Source of the DNA: Acetobacteraceae bacterium ESL0709
GTDB taxonomy: Bacteria; Pseudomonadota; Alphaproteobacteria; Acetobacterales; Acetobacteraceae
Direction of reading: 5' to 3'
NCBI GenBank assembly: GCA_029433415.1
Contig: JAQTIA010000003.1
Coordinates: 682,001-746,000, forward strand
DNA length: 64,000 nucleotides
Below, in pieces: positions 53,870 through 63,776 of this stretch. The notes under the pieces were generated by a model that was not told where the DNA came from, made no database searches, and worked only from the letters and a program-made list of their open reading frames with translations. Within the stretch, counting starts at the first letter, position 1. Every line of letters begins with the position of its first letter. The position numbers and the translations under genes were made by a program.

Positions 53870-53904
53870 GTGAAAAGGAAAGAAGGATACCCGGATGGGT
53901 ATCC
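53870..53904 (-). terminator. Terminator of the GT8-like operon
   Basis: On the minus strand GGATACCC-ATCC-GGGTATCC (53904-53885) is followed by a T-rich tail, two bases after the stop of the last GT8-like gene. It closes the leftward operon. Confidence 0.8.
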
Positions 53905-53905
53905 G

Positions 53906-55303
53906 TCAATGGTCCCTTTTCCTATAATCCCGAATCTTCCTTATATAATCTGACATGGGCCATGCCCGTTCAGCTACCGCCGTGCACCAGAAATGGATAA
54001 AACCTCGTGGCTTCCTGACATCCATGCTGCCATAATGCTGCACAATATCCGAATCAAGATTTCCACCTACGTCAGTTCTGGCTGTTATGAACGTCAGATC
54101 CACCGCCTGCAACTTCTGTAATGCGTAGTTCATTACATGCTGCTCCCTGAAGGGAATTGCCGAACGTCCGTGACGGGTCGAATAGACAATGTGTGAATAA
54201 AAAGCCAAATCAAGATAAGGTTTGTTTTTTAGTATCTGCGGAATTAGTAGGACACCACCATTAAACCCACCGCACTTCCGATCCACGGGAAAAGGATCCA
54301 GACCGTAAAGGAGCTGACCTGAACTCTCAGTATAACGGAAATCATCATGCCAATATTCAAACTGGGCACTAAGAAACCTCTCTGGTGCACCTTCGGTCAT
54401 AATTTTATTCAAAGAGCAATTAACGACAACGTCTGTATCAATATAAATAATCGGCGAGTATTTATCCAGAAGTCCTGAAGCCAGAACCGTCTGTCTTATC
54501 GCCACAAAGTCAGCATAATCGAAAGCTTCCATACGGACGATATGGCATTTCGGATATAATTGACGCGGACATACTGATTTAAAAGAAGCATGGTCTATAT
54601 TGGTTATGATAATAATATCGCCTGTATAAAAACCCGGATCGACTAGGCTCTCCAGAGAGGTGACCAACTGATTGATAACAGTTTCACCAAATGCCGCGTA
54701 AAACAGGACAGGACGATATAAGACGACCCGGTAAATATTATCATCGCTCAGAAAAATAAATTCGTTCTTATTATGGAATCTGCCAAAATTCTCCAGAATG
54801 GTTTCCAGCGACAATGTAAAAGACCCGAATGAAAGAAACTCGGAGCTGCTGTCCGCTTCATTCACTCTGGCTCGTAACAGACAGGGATCAATAACCCACT
54901 CATTACGGGTCAAATACCATAAAAAATCCAGCTCTTGCTCACTCAGGAAACGGAAGAGACAATTACGTTCCAATACTCCTTCAGAAAAAGAATTATATGC
55001 GACCATCCCGCACTCACGAGCCTGAAGATACTTCCCATCATCTGTCTTAACTGAGAAAAAACCGGATATATTTTCTATGGTGACATATCCATTTGCAAAA
55101 GCGCGGTTAACCCGCTTTTTTTCCACATCCCACCAGAGCAGCGCTGGAGATATAACCTGAAGGGTGTAATCATCCACTCTCTTCGTCACATATAGTACAT
55201 TATCCAGTGATGATAATGACGATAATGCAACAGTATGGAGACACCCACGGCTGTCAGATTTTACAATCTTATAATCTGACGTCAGAAGAGCAAAGCGTTC
55301 CAT
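53906..55303 (-). CDS. GT8-like glycosyltransferase with intact DXD motif
   Basis: This protein of about 465 residues has two parts. Residues 1-130 look like a beta-trefoil (fascin/lectin-like) domain, with KTDDGKYLQARECGMVAYNS near 88 and LFRFLSEQELDFL near 117. Residues 180-465 form a GT8-like domain with PIIYIDTDVVVN (DXD near 289), CGGFNGGVLLIP near 345, an EQHVMNYAL block near 387 and GFIHFWC near 435, all expected in an active nucleotide-sugar transferase. The ATG at 55303 follows the stop of the preceding paralogue by five bases; a TTG three codons earlier overlaps it. It is the last of three tandem paralogues and the only one with a complete DXD. Substrate unknown. Confidence 0.75.
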   Translation of the reverse strand: MERFALLTSDYKIVKSDSRGCLHTVALSSLSSLDNVLYVTKRVDDYTLQVISPALLWWDVEKKRVNRAFANGYVTIENISGFFSVKTDDGKYLQARECGMVAYNSFSEGVLERNCLFRFLSEQELDFLWYLTRNEWVIDPCLLRARVNEADSSSEFLSFGSFTLSLETILENFGRFHNKNEFIFLSDDNIYRVVLYRPVLFYAAFGETVINQLVTSLESLVDPGFYTGDIIIITNIDHASFKSVCPRQLYPKCHIVRMEAFDYADFVAIRQTVLASGLLDKYSPIIYIDTDVVVNCSLNKIMTEGAPERFLSAQFEYWHDDFRYTESSGQLLYGLDPFPVDRKCGGFNGGVLLIPQILKNKPYLDLAFYSHIVYSTRHGRSAIPFREQHVMNYALQKLQAVDLTFITARTDVGGNLDSDIVQHYGSMDVRKPRGFIHFWCTAVAERAWPMSDYIRKIRDYRKRDH

Positions 55304-55308
55304 GAGAA

Positions 55309-56658
55309 TCAAACATCCTGTATCGAATTGGAAGCATCAATAAACTGGTTACACTGCTCAAGGGACCAGCCAGACACATCCATATAGGAAAAGGACTGCC
55401 GCTCCTCCCTCGCTGATTCTTTTCCGTCCAGCGACAGACATAACGAGTATTTATTCGCAAGATAGGCCAGAAAATCAGCTTCAGACCCCTCAACAGGGAA
55501 ATACCCCCCTTTCATGACGAGGGCACGGAAAGAAAATAAAGCTGTTTTCAGAAAAGATTTATTTTGCAGGAACGCGATGGCCCCTCTTATACGACCGCCA
55601 GGAAACAGGCTGACACTTGGCTCGCAGGAAACATCATCCTTAATAAAAGGATTTTCTCTCTCTTCAACGGATACTGACTCTCTTCCTGTGACAGATTCAT
55701 CAGAAACCTGCCGGCAAAGCGCCGCCTCCAGCAAATATGACCTAAAATTTCCTGTAATCAATACATCATGCGACATCACAACAAGAGGATAAAACTCTTT
55801 TATGTCAATGGAGGCCAAGACCGATAATAAAGGAACGCATCTGTCTTTAATGTCTTTTTGTATTATAGGAACAAACTTTATATAAGCCCGCCATTCCTGC
55901 GGGATAAAAGATATAACGCTTTCATAATCAAGCACAGACGCTATAATCAGTTTATTGTCAAACTTACCTTGCCTTGCAATCCACCTCAATGCACAGGAGA
56001 ATTTCGGCAGATCCTCCACATTCGTTATAATAAAAAGCAAGGCAGGATTGAATTTCACAAACCGCCAGATATTTCCTGAGTTATACAGGACAATATCAAA
56101 TGCATCCGTACGTTCTGAATAGGCTAACGCCGCTCTCAATACAATGTCGAAAGCGAAAATCGTTTCTCCTAATGTAATATCCCAAATATTACTGGAAGAA
56201 GCCTCTGTAAAAGAAGGAACCCTTGCATTCTCACCAAGCCACGGTGTCCTGACAAACTCTCTCAGTGCCTTAAGCTCATCCAGCGTCACACATCTGAACA
56301 CTCTCGTCTTATCATGGACATTCCGTTCTGAACTGTCGATAGCACCGGAATGCGTCGTATATAGATAGGCATTCTGGCTTCCTACTCCACAGGGTTTCAG
56401 TCGAACGACACCTGGATCATTACGACGCTCCTCAAGCTCGATCCATCCTCTTGGTAATGAACGGCCAAAAGAAAGAGTCCCCAGATCCAACCATTGAGAC
56501 TCTGTCGCACCCTTACGAAAACCGACCCCTTTTCCCACTGAGGACAAAAAAACGAGCGAGGAAAAATCATCAAGCCTATCTAGTGATTGCGTTACCAACC
56601 GTCCCCGATCAGCACATAAAACATGCAGATCATAGGAAAGAACAACTGAGTCCGTCAT
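55309..56658 (-). CDS. GT8-like paralogue lacking DXD
   Basis: This 449-residue paralogue shares the two-part layout of its neighbours. The N-terminal part has AYLYTTHSGAID near residue 105 and FRCVTLDELKALREF near 128. In the C-terminal part the strand that carries DXD in the neighbour reads PLVVMSHDVLITGNF, so only one acidic residue remains. The later motifs are also weakened (RGAIAFLQNKS replaces FNGGVLLI). It is therefore probably catalytically inactive, or uses another mechanism, and may act as a lectin-like or regulatory partner. Its start overlaps the preceding gene by four bases (ATGA). Confidence 0.65.
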   Translation of the reverse strand: MTDSVVLSYDLHVLCADRGRLVTQSLDRLDDFSSLVFLSSVGKGVGFRKGATESQWLDLGTLSFGRSLPRGWIELEERRNDPGVVRLKPCGVGSQNAYLYTTHSGAIDSSERNVHDKTRVFRCVTLDELKALREFVRTPWLGENARVPSFTEASSSNIWDITLGETIFAFDIVLRAALAYSERTDAFDIVLYNSGNIWRFVKFNPALLFIITNVEDLPKFSCALRWIARQGKFDNKLIIASVLDYESVISFIPQEWRAYIKFVPIIQKDIKDRCVPLLSVLASIDIKEFYPLVVMSHDVLITGNFRSYLLEAALCRQVSDESVTGRESVSVEERENPFIKDDVSCEPSVSLFPGGRIRGAIAFLQNKSFLKTALFSFRALVMKGGYFPVEGSEADFLAYLANKYSLCLSLDGKESAREERQSFSYMDVSGWSLEQCNQFIDASNSIQDV

Positions 56659-57989
56659 GCAATATTACCTGACCTTATGTCACGCACTGTACTCAAATAG
56701 GCTTTCATCTGCCCTGACCGTGCTTCCCCGGTTATAGGAAAACAAACCATCTCAGCATCCCTGCCGTACAAGGTCTGGGCATATTGACCAGACAGAACAC
56801 GCCCTGACAAAAGAAAAGAAGAAAAGTCCCTTACGCGCCTTAAAGCATAATTAATGATCATCTGACCATCTGGTCGCAAGGATTCTTGTGGATAGGCCGT
56901 CAGGCAATGTTCAAATAATGCCGCTGCACCTTCAAGATAAAGTTGATGCGCCTGCATACCCGGAACAAGCATAATATTCCCACTTCCTTCAGAGGGAAGG
57001 GACAAGGCTTCGTCTCTCTCCTGGTCTTTATCAGCAAATCCCGGATGATAAAAATATTCCAGTGATTCAACCTGCCTGGAAAGCGCACCCTTGGCCAACA
57101 AGGTTTCTATTTCACTGCCAAAAACGACCCCGGAAGAACAGAATAAAACGGGACCATACCCCTCAAGAAGGGACTGCTCTCTCAGCAGGCGCGCCCTCGG
57201 GAGATAATCATGTCGCTTTCTGGTTTCCGTTACATCCAGAAACGTCACTCTTCCCGAAAAAGAAGCCAGACTTCCGCTTTTTTCAAGCTGTGCAATATTA
57301 TAATCAGTCAAAATAAAAATCTTGTCCTGATAACGAGCATTTTCCAGCAAACTATCCAGAACGAGAGCCAGCTCATCTGGAGCATCTGGACCATAAGCCT
57401 CAATCACCAGAAGAGGATTATAGCGCACAAAGCGCCAGACCTTCCAATCCTCATTCAATAATAACTCACCTGTTTTAAAAGCTTCAGGCAGCGCCTGCAG
57501 GAGCTGTTCAAAACTGACCTTTATGCCTCCAATAAGGACGTCGCTGACGCTACTTCTTCGCAGATCCACCGTTACAACGTCGCCTTTGGGCCCACAAACC
57601 CACCTGCCACTTACGGCTCTCACCAAAAGATCAAAATCTCCTTCTGAAAGAAACCTGAACTGACTTCCCTCATGATCAGCAAAATCGGGATTACCACTCC
57701 AGTCAACTTCAAGATATTTCTGGTCTATAAGGATATTATATATATTCGGAGCATGGGCGATTACCGTAACACCATCAAGAGGCATCAAATCGCTCACTGC
57801 CTTCTTTTTCACATCATACCACTTTACAGCACCACCCAATGTACGCAGGAAATACTTCCCTCCCTGTTTATATGCACAGAGAATCCTGTCTTTTGGCAAG
57901 CCTCTGCCAATAAAAGAAGTATGAAGGTTTCCATCCTCACCCACGTGAAGAACCTGGCACTCAGGAGTCATAATAATCTGAAGAGGCAC
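56655..57989 (-). CDS. GT8-like paralogue lacking DXD
   Basis: This 444-residue protein is the first of the three paralogues in transcription order. Its N-terminal domain has ILIDQKYLEVDWSGNPDF near residue 90 and FRFLSEGDFDLLVRAV near 115. The DXD strand reads GPVLFCSSGVVFGSE, with no acidic pair; GSGNIMLVPG takes the place of FNGG, while DGQMIINYALRR matches the EQHVMNYAL block of the active copy. Catalysis by the usual GT8 mechanism is unlikely. The start is GTG 57989, ten bases after GGAG; an ATG at 57971 is an alternative. It overlaps the next gene by four bases. Confidence 0.65.
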   Translation of the reverse strand: MPLQIIMTPECQVLHVGEDGNLHTSFIGRGLPKDRILCAYKQGGKYFLRTLGGAVKWYDVKKKAVSDLMPLDGVTVIAHAPNIYNILIDQKYLEVDWSGNPDFADHEGSQFRFLSEGDFDLLVRAVSGRWVCGPKGDVVTVDLRRSSVSDVLIGGIKVSFEQLLQALPEAFKTGELLLNEDWKVWRFVRYNPLLVIEAYGPDAPDELALVLDSLLENARYQDKIFILTDYNIAQLEKSGSLASFSGRVTFLDVTETRKRHDYLPRARLLREQSLLEGYGPVLFCSSGVVFGSEIETLLAKGALSRQVESLEYFYHPGFADKDQERDEALSLPSEGSGNIMLVPGMQAHQLYLEGAAALFEHCLTAYPQESLRPDGQMIINYALRRVRDFSSFLLSGRVLSGQYAQTLYGRDAEMVCFPITGEARSGQMKAYLSTVRDIRSGNIA

Positions 57990-58099
57990 GCGAGAATTCT
58001 CCTATAACTCAGCAGCGCAGGAGTATATCACTCCTCTGCAAAAGATTAAACTCTGCGTTAAGAACACCCTCTCGCACATAACCAGCAATATTATTGTGC

Positions 58100-59164
58100 T
58101 CAGTAAAAAAAATTCCACGGATATTCATCCGTTTTCAATATCCCGAATGTCTTTCGGAGCATGTAATCAGAGACACTGACCTCATTAAATAACCTGCTAT
58201 AGTGCTCCCAGCCCTTATAGGCGCTTTTCTGAAGCTCTTCCGGGTTCCGGATATAGTAACGGATACGGTCACAAAGCTCCTCAACAGAACTGAAGAAAAT
58301 CATCTCATCTTCTGAGAAAAACCTGTCGTAACCAATTGCCCTCTCAATAGCGACAAGCTGGCCATTACCTATCATATGAGCCAAACGGTCAGAACTATAT
58401 AAAGCATAGTCAGAGCGTCGGCTGATATTCAACCCAATTGCAGAATTCTCAAGCAACTCGACATAATGATAACCACTTCTGTAAGGCTGTTGCCTCACCC
58501 CCGCATAGGCAAATCTGGTTTCTGCTGGAAGTCTGCCTTCCAGCATGACGCAAAATTCGTCCATCTGCCAATAACGTCCGCATATTTCCCTCAAACGATC
58601 TGGATTTCCACAGGAATAGAAAACGTCATAAGGCAAATGCTTTGATTCGAAATTTCGCCCCCGTTCAACGGAAAGATCTACAGGGTTAGGCAAAAACCCA
58701 ACAATTTTTGTATCTCCCAGGAGACCATAAAGATGACGTTCCCCTGTTGAGACAAAGCTTGCATCCACAACTTCATGACGCGCCACAACATCCAGACGGT
58801 TCTGCTCCACGAAAAGTGCATCAATATTCCATTGAATCGCTTTCATATCTGGCAGAACCTGCCGGATTTCAGAAATAATCTCAGGCGGGATCATATAGCC
58901 ATGCCCAAGAATCAGAACATCCGGGCGGAAAGAGGCCACCGTCTTTTTCAGGGCATGCCACATGGCCTTCCGCCCCAATAAGCGACTGTTAAAAAAGCCG
59001 TAATGACGCGCTACATCCCTGTACGAAAAATTAAGAACGTAATGGCCATTACGAATAAAACCGTTGGAAAGCTTCCCGCCCACACTGAATAGCCCGGGAG
59101 AGCGTTCCTTCAATGACGTAAAAAAATCCCCCACATGCAAGATTTTCAATGAGGACAGAGTCAT
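58100..59164 (-). CDS. CgeB/GT4-like glycosyltransferase
   Basis: This 354-residue protein resembles glycosyltransferases of the CgeB/group 1 type (GT-B fold). It begins LKILHVGDFFTSLKERSPG and has ALFVEQNRLDVVARHEVVDAS near residue 118, VGFLPNPVDLS near 150, and a C-terminal nucleotide-sugar domain with ENSAIGLNISRRSDYALYSS near 240 and NGQLVAIERAIGYDRFFSED near 270. The CgeB-like pattern (E near the sugar nucleotide, late DXXF) is present. It lies 110 bases upstream of the three GT8-like genes on the same strand and probably works on the same glycan. The ribosome binding site is weak. Substrate unknown. Confidence 0.75.
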   Translation of the reverse strand: MTLSSLKILHVGDFFTSLKERSPGLFSVGGKLSNGFIRNGHYVLNFSYRDVARHYGFFNSRLLGRKAMWHALKKTVASFRPDVLILGHGYMIPPEIISEIRQVLPDMKAIQWNIDALFVEQNRLDVVARHEVVDASFVSTGERHLYGLLGDTKIVGFLPNPVDLSVERGRNFESKHLPYDVFYSCGNPDRLREICGRYWQMDEFCVMLEGRLPAETRFAYAGVRQQPYRSGYHYVELLENSAIGLNISRRSDYALYSSDRLAHMIGNGQLVAIERAIGYDRFFSEDEMIFFSSVEELCDRIRYYIRNPEELQKSAYKGWEHYSRLFNEVSVSDYMLRKTFGILKTDEYPWNFFY

Positions 59165-59210: not shown

Positions 59211-59834
59211 TTAATCCCCACTCCACCATTTAACAGGTTCCTGCTCTTCGCCACTCTCTGACAAAGGGAGCGTCAGTCTTCTGACCCGAGCTCTGCGTGC
59301 TGCTTCCTCATTTGCGCTAATGGCCCTCTTATCTCGCATCATTTTCAGACGAACATTATCGTCTTTAAGTAGAGTAAGCTTTTTTTCCCGTTCTTCAAGC
59401 TGAAGCTGGTAATGTGCCAGACGCGTCTCAAGAGCACGAAGTTTTATCTTCAGCCTTTCAACTTCGCTTTCGGCAGCCAGAGTGCGCTGTTTCTCCTGCG
59501 TAAGAACCTGCTGAAGCTGTGCAACCTCTTCCGACCCACTATTGTCAGACCGATCAGCCACTGTTTTTGCTGAAAGAACGGCTTTCCGACTGTGACGGCC
59601 AAGATCATTACGATGTTCGACAACAACACTGCCATCATTAACAAAACGACGTCTCTTGACCGAGGGACCGCTCATAAACGGGTTCCCCGCATAAGGCTGA
59701 CGCCCACTCACTTCACCGCCTGACTTGTGGGAAGGACTTCTATCTGATCGTGATCCCAATCTTTCCAGAGCTTCTCTGAGAGACTGCTCCGTGAATTGTG
59801 TATCTTCGGGCATAATGACAGTTCTATATTCCAT
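59211..59834 (-). CDS. Coiled-coil protein of unknown function
   Basis: This protein of about 207 residues starts MEYRTVIMPEDTQFTEQSLR. A basic, Ser/Gly-rich linker (residues 30-95) precedes a coiled coil at about 105-185 (EEVAQLQQVLTQEKQRTLAA, then RALETRLAHYQLQLEEREKKL). It has no signal peptide and is probably cytoplasmic. No family recognised. The ATG at 59834 is one choice; an ATG at 59813 or a TTG at 59885 are possible. It ends 46 bases before the glycosyltransferase gene on the same strand and may be part of that locus. Confidence 0.6.
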   Translation of the reverse strand: MEYRTVIMPEDTQFTEQSLREALERLGSRSDRSPSHKSGGEVSGRQPYAGNPFMSGPSVKRRRFVNDGSVVVEHRNDLGRHSRKAVLSAKTVADRSDNSGSEEVAQLQQVLTQEKQRTLAAESEVERLKIKLRALETRLAHYQLQLEEREKKLTLLKDDNVRLKMMRDKRAISANEEAARRARVRRLTLPLSESGEEQEPVKWWSGD

Positions 59835-60060
59835 TTTTGAAAGACGAATGTTCCCACGACCCCTTTTTACAGAACCTTGCCACAAGGAAAGGACACAGCA
59901 ATCACCGACTCACGACCACGCCGCATGATCCCATCACGCAAGATAACATTCAGTCACCGCGTCTGCGTTATAACGACTATAACTGGTCTTGTCATCAGCA
60001 GAACATGATAAAATAAATTTATGCCGGAAAAATTTATACAATATTAACTTTTTATCTTTT

Positions 60061-61059: not shown

Positions 61060-61326
61060 AATCTGCATAATCAGGGCAAGAACAAAACATCCTGTAATAA
61101 TTGCCACCAAAAGAATCTGCTCTCGCCCCAAGGCCGTTTCTATATGAAAAACCCCATAAAGGCGTGGCCAGATTTCAGCTGCGACCAGTCTCTGCACCAT
61201 AGACCGCGCGGGAGAGCAAAACCGCACCGCCACCACCATAAGCAATGTCAACGAAACAAGGGAAATCGTCCTTAACAACGTCGCCAGAGGCGTAACACCC
61301 TGCAAGGACAGATTATATCGCTTCAT
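61003..61326 (-). CDS. Small membrane protein coupled to the aminotransferase gene
   Basis: This protein of about 107 residues starts MKRYNLSLQGVTPLATLLRT and has two membrane segments (ISLVSLTLLMVVAVRF and ILLVAIITGCFVLALIMQILFLF, split around a soluble loop). Its ATG overlaps the stop of the aminotransferase upstream (ATGA at 61326-61323), which supports this start over one 12 codons earlier. The 3' end overlaps the convergent DUF423 gene by 57 bases. No family recognised. Confidence 0.55.
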   Translation of the reverse strand: MKRYNLSLQGVTPLATLLRTISLVSLTLLMVVAVRFCSPARSMVQRLVAAEIWPRLYGVFHIETALGREQILLVAIITGCFVLALIMQILFLFIKDVCLAKSSARHN

Positions 61327-62525
61327 GAACAGCCCAGAACAAACCGCTCCAGCCGCCGGCAAGCTTCCGCCAGTTCTTCATCTGAAGCCGCGAATGAAAG
61401 GCGCAAATGAGAGCCTTTTCCAAAAGAGGAACCCGGCACTGTCGCCAGATGCTGCTCCTCCAGCAAAGCTTCCGCAAGATCCACATCATTATCCAACATG
61501 CGCCCGGAAGGAGTCTTTTTGCCTATCAGTGCTGTAAAACCCGGGAAAGCATAAAATGCACCCTGTGGCATTGCACAGCTGACGCCTGGGATATTCCGCA
61601 AAAATCCCACGACACGATCGCGCCTTTCCTCATAAACGCGCTTCATTGCCTCCACGCCTTCCATAGGACCTGAAAGAACAGCCCGCGCTCCACCTTGCGC
61701 CAGAGTACAAATCCCCGAAGAAATATTACCCTGCACCTTGACCATGGCCTTTATCAAAGCTTCTGGTCCACAGGCAAAACCTACACGCCAGCCCGTCATG
61801 GCATAAGCCTTGCTCACTCCATTGACGATCAGAATACGATCCGCAAGATCAGGCGCAATCTGTGCTAAAGAAACATGTTTCTTGCCGGAGAATGTCAGAT
61901 GTTCATAAATCTCGTCGCTCATGATCATCACATGAGGCGCTTTTCGCAAAACTTCCGCCAACGCCTCAAGATCAGCGCGCTCCATAATGGCGCCCGTCGG
62001 ATTATTGGGAAAATTCAACACAAGCCAGCGCGTCCTTGGCGTGATAGCTTTCGCCAGATCTTCTGCCTTGAGACGGAAGTTATTCTCCTCCAGGCAAGAC
62101 ACTTCAACAGGACACCCACCAAACATCTGCACGATCAGCGGATAACTCACCCAATAAGGCGCAGGGACGATCACCTCATCACCTGCCTCTATTGAGGCCA
62201 TAAAAGCATTAAAAATAATCTGCTTGCCACCATTGGCTACCATCAACCGCGACAAAGGCACATCAAGCGCGTTATCGCGCCTGAACTTATAAGCAACAGC
62301 TTCCAGAAGCGTTTTCTGACCCGCCAGAGGGGGATAACCCGTATGGCCGTCCCTTACCTCTTCAATCGCCCCTTCCAGAGCCTCTTCGGGAGAAGCAAAA
62401 TCAGGCTGCCCCAGTGCGAGGGAAATGACGGGCTTCCCTTCTGCCTTCAGTTCCCTGGCACGCGCCGCCATGGCGATCGTTGCCGGAGACGGAAGAGAAG
62501 CAATACGGGAAGCAGGACGAAACAT
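61323..62525 (-). CDS. Class I aspartate aminotransferase, copy 1
   Basis: This 400-residue PLP enzyme belongs to the aminotransferase I-gamma group of AspC/AatA. PVISLALGQPDFASPEEALE begins near residue 32, NFPNNPTGAIMERADLEALAE near 170, and the PLP lysine is in NGVSKAYAMTGWRVGFACGP near 234. It transfers amino groups between aspartate, glutamate and 2-oxoacids. Its ATG overlaps the stop of the upstream paralogue by one base (TGATG). The preference could be for other substrates, such as aromatic amino acids or prephenate, which this group sometimes uses. Confidence 0.88.
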   Translation of the reverse strand: MFRPASRIASLPSPATIAMAARARELKAEGKPVISLALGQPDFASPEEALEGAIEEVRDGHTGYPPLAGQKTLLEAVAYKFRRDNALDVPLSRLMVANGGKQIIFNAFMASIEAGDEVIVPAPYWVSYPLIVQMFGGCPVEVSCLEENNFRLKAEDLAKAITPRTRWLVLNFPNNPTGAIMERADLEALAEVLRKAPHVMIMSDEIYEHLTFSGKKHVSLAQIAPDLADRILIVNGVSKAYAMTGWRVGFACGPEALIKAMVKVQGNISSGICTLAQGGARAVLSGPMEGVEAMKRVYEERRDRVVGFLRNIPGVSCAMPQGAFYAFPGFTALIGKKTPSGRMLDNDVDLAEALLEEQHLATVPGSSFGKGSHLRLSFAASDEELAEACRRLERFVLGCS

Positions 62526-63727
62526 CAACTCAGACTTTCACAGAATCTCTTGATACGCCGACAAGCTTCCTCCAGAAGTTCCGTACTGGTCGCGTAAGAC
62601 ACACGGAAATATCCCGGCGTCAGGAACGCAGCCCCATGTACGGCCGCAACACCTGTCTCTTCCAGGAGAGACGTCACAAAATCCTCGCAGCTTGCGATTT
62701 TCCTGCCAGTACTTGTCTTCTTCCCGATCAGGCTCCTGACAGACACAAAAGCATAGAAAGCACCGTCTGGCCGGCCACATTCCAGTCCATCAACCTGCGA
62801 GAGTCTGGAAACGACCAGATCACGTCTGGTCTGATAAACCTCCCGCATCTCACTGACACAATTCTGTGGCCCCGACATCGCCGCAACCGTCGCTGCCTGA
62901 GCAATGGAACAGGGATTACTCGTACTCTGACTCTGCAACTTGATCAGCTGCTTCGTAAAAGCCTCAGGTGCAGCAGAAAAGCCGATACGCCAGCCTGTCA
63001 TAGCATAAGCCTTGCTGACGCCGTTCATAGTCACAGTCCGGTCCCTCAAACGCGGCTCAACCTGCACAATCGTTTTCGACACACGCCCATCGTAAATCAG
63101 CTTTGCATAAATATCGTCTGCAAAAATCCAGATATCCGGATAATCAAGCAGAACATCTGTCAGAGCTCTCAGCTCCTGCTCAGAATAGGCGGCTCCTGTC
63201 GGGTTACAGGGTGAATTGATCATGAACCACTTTGTCCGCTCGGTAATGGCACCACGCAACTGCTCCGCAGTCAGGCGAAAACCATTTTCTGGGCTGGTCT
63301 GCACGATCACAGGCACACCGTCAGCCAGACGAACAATATCAGGATAAGAAACCCACGCAGGTGCGGGAATAATCACCTCATCACCAGCATTGAGACTGGC
63401 CATCAATGCATTGTAAATAACCTGCTTGCCACCAGTAGAAACACAGATCTCTTCCTTTCGATAATCAAGGCCGAAATCAGCATTGAGACGATCAGCCACA
63501 GCCTGCCTGACAGCCGACGTCCCCGCAACATCCGTATATCTCGTCTCACCTTTTGCCAAGGCCTCAATAGCAGCCTGTTTAATAAAATCAGGCGTATCAA
63601 AATCAGGCTCACCGGCCGAAAGACTGATGATATCCTTTCCTTCAGCCTTAAGCTGTCGAGCCTTCTGCGTAATCGCGATTGTCTGGCTGGGAAGGATACG
63701 GTTCATCCGCTCTGCAACAATAGACAT
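62525..63727 (-). CDS. Class I aspartate aminotransferase, copy 2
   Basis: This 400-residue paralogue of the preceding gene has DIISLSAGEPDFDTPDFIKQ near residue 30, NSPCNPTGAAYSEQELRALTD near 170 and the PLP lysine in NGVSKAYAMTGWRIGFSAAP near 235. Its N-terminus (MNRILPSQTIAITQKARQL) matches AatA of Alphaproteobacteria more closely than copy 1, so I take this as the main aspartate aminotransferase. I chose ATG 63727 (MSIVAERMN), five bases after GAGG. It probably shares a transcript with copy 1. Confidence 0.9.
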   Translation of the reverse strand: MSIVAERMNRILPSQTIAITQKARQLKAEGKDIISLSAGEPDFDTPDFIKQAAIEALAKGETRYTDVAGTSAVRQAVADRLNADFGLDYRKEEICVSTGGKQVIYNALMASLNAGDEVIIPAPAWVSYPDIVRLADGVPVIVQTSPENGFRLTAEQLRGAITERTKWFMINSPCNPTGAAYSEQELRALTDVLLDYPDIWIFADDIYAKLIYDGRVSKTIVQVEPRLRDRTVTMNGVSKAYAMTGWRIGFSAAPEAFTKQLIKLQSQSTSNPCSIAQAATVAAMSGPQNCVSEMREVYQTRRDLVVSRLSQVDGLECGRPDGAFYAFVSVRSLIGKKTSTGRKIASCEDFVTSLLEETGVAAVHGAAFLTPGYFRVSYATSTELLEEACRRIKRFCESLS

Positions 63728-63776
63728 CATAACCTCTGACAATCAGATTCCGACAAAATTATAACAAGTTAAAAAT

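Follow-up and report, generated by a model that had tools for sequence, protein, structure and literature searches.

A predicted trefoil-GT8 transferase of Acetobacteraceae encoded beside two retained paralogues with degenerate active sites

Why would a small bacterial genome keep two copies of a glycosyltransferase whose active site is eroded beside a third copy in which it is intact? Three adjacent genes of Acetobacteraceae bacterium ESL0709 (genome of 2.25 Mb) raise this question; they lie in a stretch of 64,000 nucleotides (nt) of contig JAQTIA010000003.1 (positions 682,001 to 746,000), which we call the window. We named the genes A, B and C in their order of transcription on the minus strand (Table 1), and residue numbers are those of C unless stated. 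The original prediction, made from the sequence of this DNA, described three adjacent paralogues of 444-465 residues comprising one active transferase and two non-catalytic partners, and its coordinates, lengths and motif strings are correct. We find it likely that both A and B fall outside the family's usual kind of glycosyltransferase (GT); that the two are retained as non-catalytic partners of a GT8-like transferase, C, in the assembly of a surface glycan is a reading to which we give an even chance.

The three proteins are paralogues, C matching A with an expect value (E) of 2e-24 and B with one of 1e-8, far better than chance would give, and a chance open reading frame or annotation artefact is ruled out because intact frames are conserved between genera. 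The predicted gene overlap holds for A and B, which share 4 nt (ATGA); between B and C it exists only if C starts at a TTG at 55312, giving a protein of 468 residues and a 4-nt overlap with the stop of B, whereas an ATG at 55303 leaves a gap of 5 nt. The FRFLSE-like junction attributed to all three proteins takes just a loose form in B (FRCVTL).

The three copies diverge most tellingly at the DxD motif, where C has DTD, A has CSSG and B has MSHD. Residues D289, D291, G329, D336, G346, G350, Q388, N392, Y393, H437 and F438 are invariant in the family alignment, and all of the roughly 47 fetched homologues besides A and B, C orthologues included, carry the DxD pair. These homologues nearly always hold the full motif set, a few distant ones deviating at other positions; loss of the DxD and of this set is confined to the orthologues of A and B. 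As predicted, only C of the three keeps the DxD, and the loss extends further: among 26 columns that hardly vary across 22 C and single-copy sequences, A has lost 13 and B 16 (counting a column as lost where the residue occurs in at most one orthologue out of three), and the DxD, G-loop residues, R380 and the C-terminal histidine are lost together. The substitutes at the DxD place vary by orthologue (SSG, SSG and EAG in A; SHD, TPD and KSS in B), the pattern that a site without catalytic function should show, and neither the A nor the B orthologues share a substitute catalytic set elsewhere in the protein. We regard the non-catalysis of A and B as well supported, and C would be the active transferase. 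The predicted division of labour thus stands as regards one intact active-site set and two proteins without one; the physical partnership is something that we only infer.

All three proteins are predicted to consist of an N-terminal twelve-strand β-trefoil and a C-terminal GT-A domain, as modelled for A and, in part, for B. The β-strand repeats claimed for the N-terminal region correspond to twelve strands within the first 115-125 residues of both models, in a trefoil-like arrangement followed by the GT-A region. The model of A (predicted local distance difference test score, pLDDT, 83) has as its best Foldseek matches the catalytic domain of UGGT and glycogenin (E from 3e-7 to 5e-7), and with LARGE1 these make up its top matches (E about 1e-6). 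The model of B (pLDDT 72, low at its residues 318-357 and 386-449, with the last 130 residues poorly modelled) draws trefoils first, hisactophilin at the top (template-modelling score to target 0.74) and also IL-18 and FGF, and matches of its C-terminal part to glycogenin and bacterial GT6 enzymes are partial (E = 3e-4). The predicted GT-A fold is thus firm for A and partial for B, which in sequence is also homologous to C; in keeping with the original prediction, no C-terminal domain was placed outside GT-A folds. Searched against sequences in the PDB, the profile of the C family gives weak matches to LgtC (E = 0.9) and to 7zoh, a CBM92 trefoil (E = 0.008); the sequence signal of the trefoil is CBM92/fascin-like. 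The match of C itself to Glyco_transf_8 (PF01501) is also weak (16.6 bits, E = 0.006; curated cut-off 24.3 bits), so one could argue that its motif likeness misleads and that C is no GT8-type glycosyltransferase. We consider this extremely improbable, since the family keeps every element of the GT-A motif set, PF01501 matches 12 of its 19 aligned members (best E = 1.8e-8) and the paralogue A draws GT-A matches in Foldseek. Some single-copy relatives of about 350 residues (L041, L047, L050) lack most of the N-terminal trefoil and keep the GT motif set.

Both degenerate copies are under purifying selection. Between two Saccharibacter genomes, the ratio of nonsynonymous to synonymous substitution rates (dN/dS) is about 0.13 for A, 0.11 for B and 0.07 for C (ratios between genera are saturated and were unused), and the frames are open for A in three genomes and for B in four, at 24-45% identity between species or genera. 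Conservation within B is concentrated in the trefoil (33-45%, against 15-30% in the catalytic half), the reverse of C (28-46% in the trefoil, 46-52% in the catalytic half). For a protein that is selected in this way while its catalytic half is eroded, non-catalytic is the best reading.

How old are these copies? The C family comprises proteins of about 450 residues, scattered as single copies across the Acetobacteraceae: a match to C occurs in 22 of 200 family genomes, and the named hosts (Commensalibacter, Gluconobacter, Asaia, Ameyamaea, Acetobacter and Saccharibacter) are acetic acid bacteria. The relatives confirmed in genome contigs came from an alignment query, a single-protein query giving none. 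The order C-B-A is kept in four genomes of two genera, namely that of the window, a second species of its genus (G061), Saccharibacter floricola and Saccharibacter sp. EH611. A tree of 29 proteins (support in pairs) joins all A proteins in one clade (100/100), all B proteins in another (100/100) and all C proteins in a third (97/94), with the three together apart from the single copies (82/78) and B paired with C at just 87/84. Because A, B and C each form one clade across both genera, the duplications are older than the split of the window's genus and Saccharibacter; conservation of the triplet in the second species and in two Saccharibacter species likewise makes the degenerate copies old. 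The DxD was probably lost twice, although the B-C pairing is modestly supported. Long stems of A (1.21) and B (0.91), compared with that of C (0.23), together with a frameshifted A in strain EH611, could suggest duplicates decaying toward pseudogenes. This explanation is already disfavoured and we hold it very unlikely: the frames have stayed open in several genomes despite such divergence, dN/dS is 0.11-0.13, and gene order and coupling are conserved.

What, then, would A and B do? We propose that C works in the cytosol as a metal-dependent GT8-like (GT-A) transferase with a fascin/CBM92-like N-terminal trefoil, whose DxD and H437 would bind donor and metal for transfer to an acceptor possibly held by the trefoil, as its family suggests; by eye, no membrane anchor is obvious in the triplet proteins. 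A and B would have lost donor and metal binding and retained the fold, and, produced through translational coupling of A-B-C, they would contact C or the acceptor in a hetero-oligomer in which they stabilise C, position it or present the acceptor. Linkage, coupling and co-occurrence argue for this partnership, on which we are evenly divided: in 397 family genomes, every A or B orthologue detected came together with C. A narrower version, a hetero-trimer of paralogous trefoil-GT8 chains in which one is catalytic and two are obligatory pseudo-enzymes that bind or measure the acceptor glycan, is tentative and seems unlikely to us.

Several observations weigh against A and B as non-catalytic partners of C. 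GT-A enzymes that lack a DxD can be active, as in GT14 and bacterial GT6 (PMC7185993, PMC3961637), and therefore loss of the DxD argues for the inactivity of A and B and does not prove it. Furthermore, A keeps Q-x3-NY in all three orthologues (Q and N are lost in B), and bacterial GT6 structures are among the fold matches of B. One or both proteins might thus still be enzymes that use metal-independent or other chemistry and other residues, which we judge improbable because the DxD, G-loop, R380 and C-terminal histidine have gone together and their substitutes are unconserved among orthologues, most clearly in B. The trefoil raises a second difficulty. The CBM92 modules characterised so far are attached to carbohydrate-active enzymes, each with three Trp-Glu sugar sites, to which the WExF motif corresponds (PMC11039641). 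A twelve-strand trefoil is common to CBM92 and bacterial fascin-like proteins and to the C family, and the single-copy relatives retain WExF in the third trefoil repeat; in contrast, the alignment shows the motif to be absent from A, B and C, even in the third subdomain. A lectin-like role is weakened by this loss and, through that site, is therefore unsupported, and we set aside the triplet trefoil as a canonical CBM92 sugar binder. Lastly, gene A of Saccharibacter sp. EH611 (L109:5300-6640) has, relative to S. floricola, one base inserted within a G run (+1) and one base deleted further on (-1), with B and C intact; a pseudogene of recent origin, phase variation at the run and an error of assembly are each conceivable. 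If the frameshifts are real, A is dispensable there, and unless they are assembly errors a complex that requires all three proteins is unsupported in that strain.

A broken A beside an intact C would also fit proteins that are non-catalytic yet independent of C, for example cytosolic trefoil proteins whose ligand is another protein or a glycan intermediate, or whose target of regulation is the CgeB-like enzyme encoded upstream, and which share with C just its transcript. That the trefoil is the best conserved part of B points the same way. Given that A and B occur solely alongside C and are tightly coupled to it, we assign this explanation a low probability.

The CgeB-like gene, correctly predicted to precede the triplet, bears on the same alternative. 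It is found in 44 of 397 family genomes, from 15 genera and mostly without the triplet; in a third species of the Saccharibacter genus (L128) and in L129, ispH, a lipoprotein gene and the CgeB-like, coiled-coil and DUF4142 genes are present with the triplet absent, and in L130 the locus is likewise present without it. A fixed four-gene unit that includes the CgeB-like gene is rejected on these grounds. This gene appears instead to be an older resident of the locus, and, as the locus exists without the triplet in relatives, the triplet would have entered, or been duplicated in, an older surface-glycan locus. An older neighbour would suit A and B as its regulators; its frequency without either of them argues against this.

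For A and B as partners of C, the neighbourhood also indicates a product. In Saccharibacter, L131 and L134 a gene for a Wzy_C O-antigen ligase comes immediately after the CgeB-like gene (the two overlap in L110:3027-5209), and this ligase gene is the sole Wzy_C gene in three Saccharibacter genomes. None was detected in the window's genome, in G061 or in G362, and the ligase was presumably lost in the window's genus. Such neighbours, a CgeB-like transferase and, in Saccharibacter, the sole O-antigen ligase, indicate surface glycan synthesis, and a glycan of the lipopolysaccharide type would be the likeliest product.

Other features of the locus are less distinctive. The clear terminator said to close the set stands in part: a hairpin lies right after C, and relatives likewise show hairpins after C, but it has an imperfect T-run, and the region holds no more terminator-like sites than shuffled sequence does. 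A search for phage origin gave no match for A, and a plasmid check gave a single weak and partial match, to C; both origins are set aside. Beside the locus (61323-63742), the window holds two adjoining, mutually similar aminotransferase genes (401 and 405 residues), which are paired in most relatives. In Ameyamaea, a single intact C-type gene (L113:7941-9359) occupies the same broader neighbourhood, with the small c9 gene adjacent and the aminotransferase genes close by, and its location may mark the ancestral site.

Table 1. Features of the triplet locus, in window coordinates
Feature	Position	Strand	Remarks
Hairpin right after C, likely terminator, 8-bp stem, imperfect T-run	53885..53904	-	
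Gene C, trefoil and GT8-like transferase (predicted), intact motif set	53906..55303	-	465 residues; family-invariant active-site residues all kept
C-terminal His codon of C, H437	53993..53995	-	Invariant in family; lost in A and B
DTD (DxD) codons of C, residues 289-291	54431..54439	-	D289 and D291 invariant in family alignment and wider set
Gene B, paralogue, degenerate active site	55309..56658	-	449 residues; trefoil best conserved, catalytic half least
SHD codons of B at DxD place, residues 296-298	55765..55773	-	TPD in G061, KSS in Saccharibacter
Gene A, paralogue, degenerate active site	56655..57989	-	444 residues, GTG start; predicted GT-A fold, good confidence
SSG codons of A at DxD place, residues 285-287	57129..57137	-	SSG in G061, EAG in Saccharibacter
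CgeB-like glycosyltransferase	58100..59164	-	PF13524, E = 1.9e-15; precedes A in transcription order
Coiled-coil protein upstream of CgeB-like gene	59211..59885	-	Syntenic in relatives with and without triplet; no clear family match

A narrow literature search found no description of the C family or of a trefoil-GT8 triplet. Nevertheless, the original claim that no system of this form has been described is too strong, since COSMC, GAUT7 and IRX9 are degenerate GT-A paralogues that serve active relatives. COSMC (C1GALT1C1), of GT31, has lost both the DxD and the xED and is the chaperone of T-synthase (PMC7185993). It resembles A and B as a GT-A paralogue without DxD and other active-site motifs, its inactivity and its role as scaffold or chaperone for an active relative being COSMC's own; it differs as an animal endoplasmic reticulum chaperone of another GT family, with one degenerate partner and no trefoil, and its partnership is proven, whereas that of A and B is one that we infer. 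GAUT1 and GAUT7 both belong to GT8. GAUT7 is described as an inactive paralogue required by GAUT1 in the plant pectin synthase complex (PMC4132061). The likeness to A and B would lie in an inactive GT8 paralogue of an active relative, the active relative's need for it being particular to GAUT7; GAUT7 is a single degenerate copy that anchors GAUT1 in the Golgi, in contrast to a triplet with β-trefoils, two degenerate copies and no obvious anchor. IRX9, of GT43, functions without a DxD (PMC4132061). The altered motif at the DxD place is shared with A and B, function independent of catalysis is that of IRX9, and the setting differs (plant xylan synthesis in the eukaryotic Golgi by an inverting family). 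GtfA and GtfB have the GT-B fold. In the glycosylation of serine-rich repeat adhesins, GtfB is the acceptor-binding chaperone for catalytic GtfA (PMC6973325). These are bacterial, linked transferase genes like those of the triplet, with one catalytic protein and one chaperone in the case of GtfA and GtfB; unlike the triplet, they share DUF1975, belong to the accessory Sec locus of Gram-positives and have no trefoil and no triplet arrangement.

Pseudo-glycosyltransferases in supporting roles are known mainly from eukaryotes, the bacterial case being GtfA/GtfB. Because selection has kept the degenerate copies, the retention of A and B without a working active site suggests that they help an enzyme rather than catalyse. 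A small bacterial operon with one intact and two degenerate paralogues is a compact test bed for the roles of dead enzyme copies, and useful contrasts are offered by the sister genera, which have single-copy relatives, and by a natural strain in which one of the copies is broken. The hosts are acetic acid bacteria with small genomes, whose named relatives come from flowers and bees, and surface glycans probably matter for life in these habitats.

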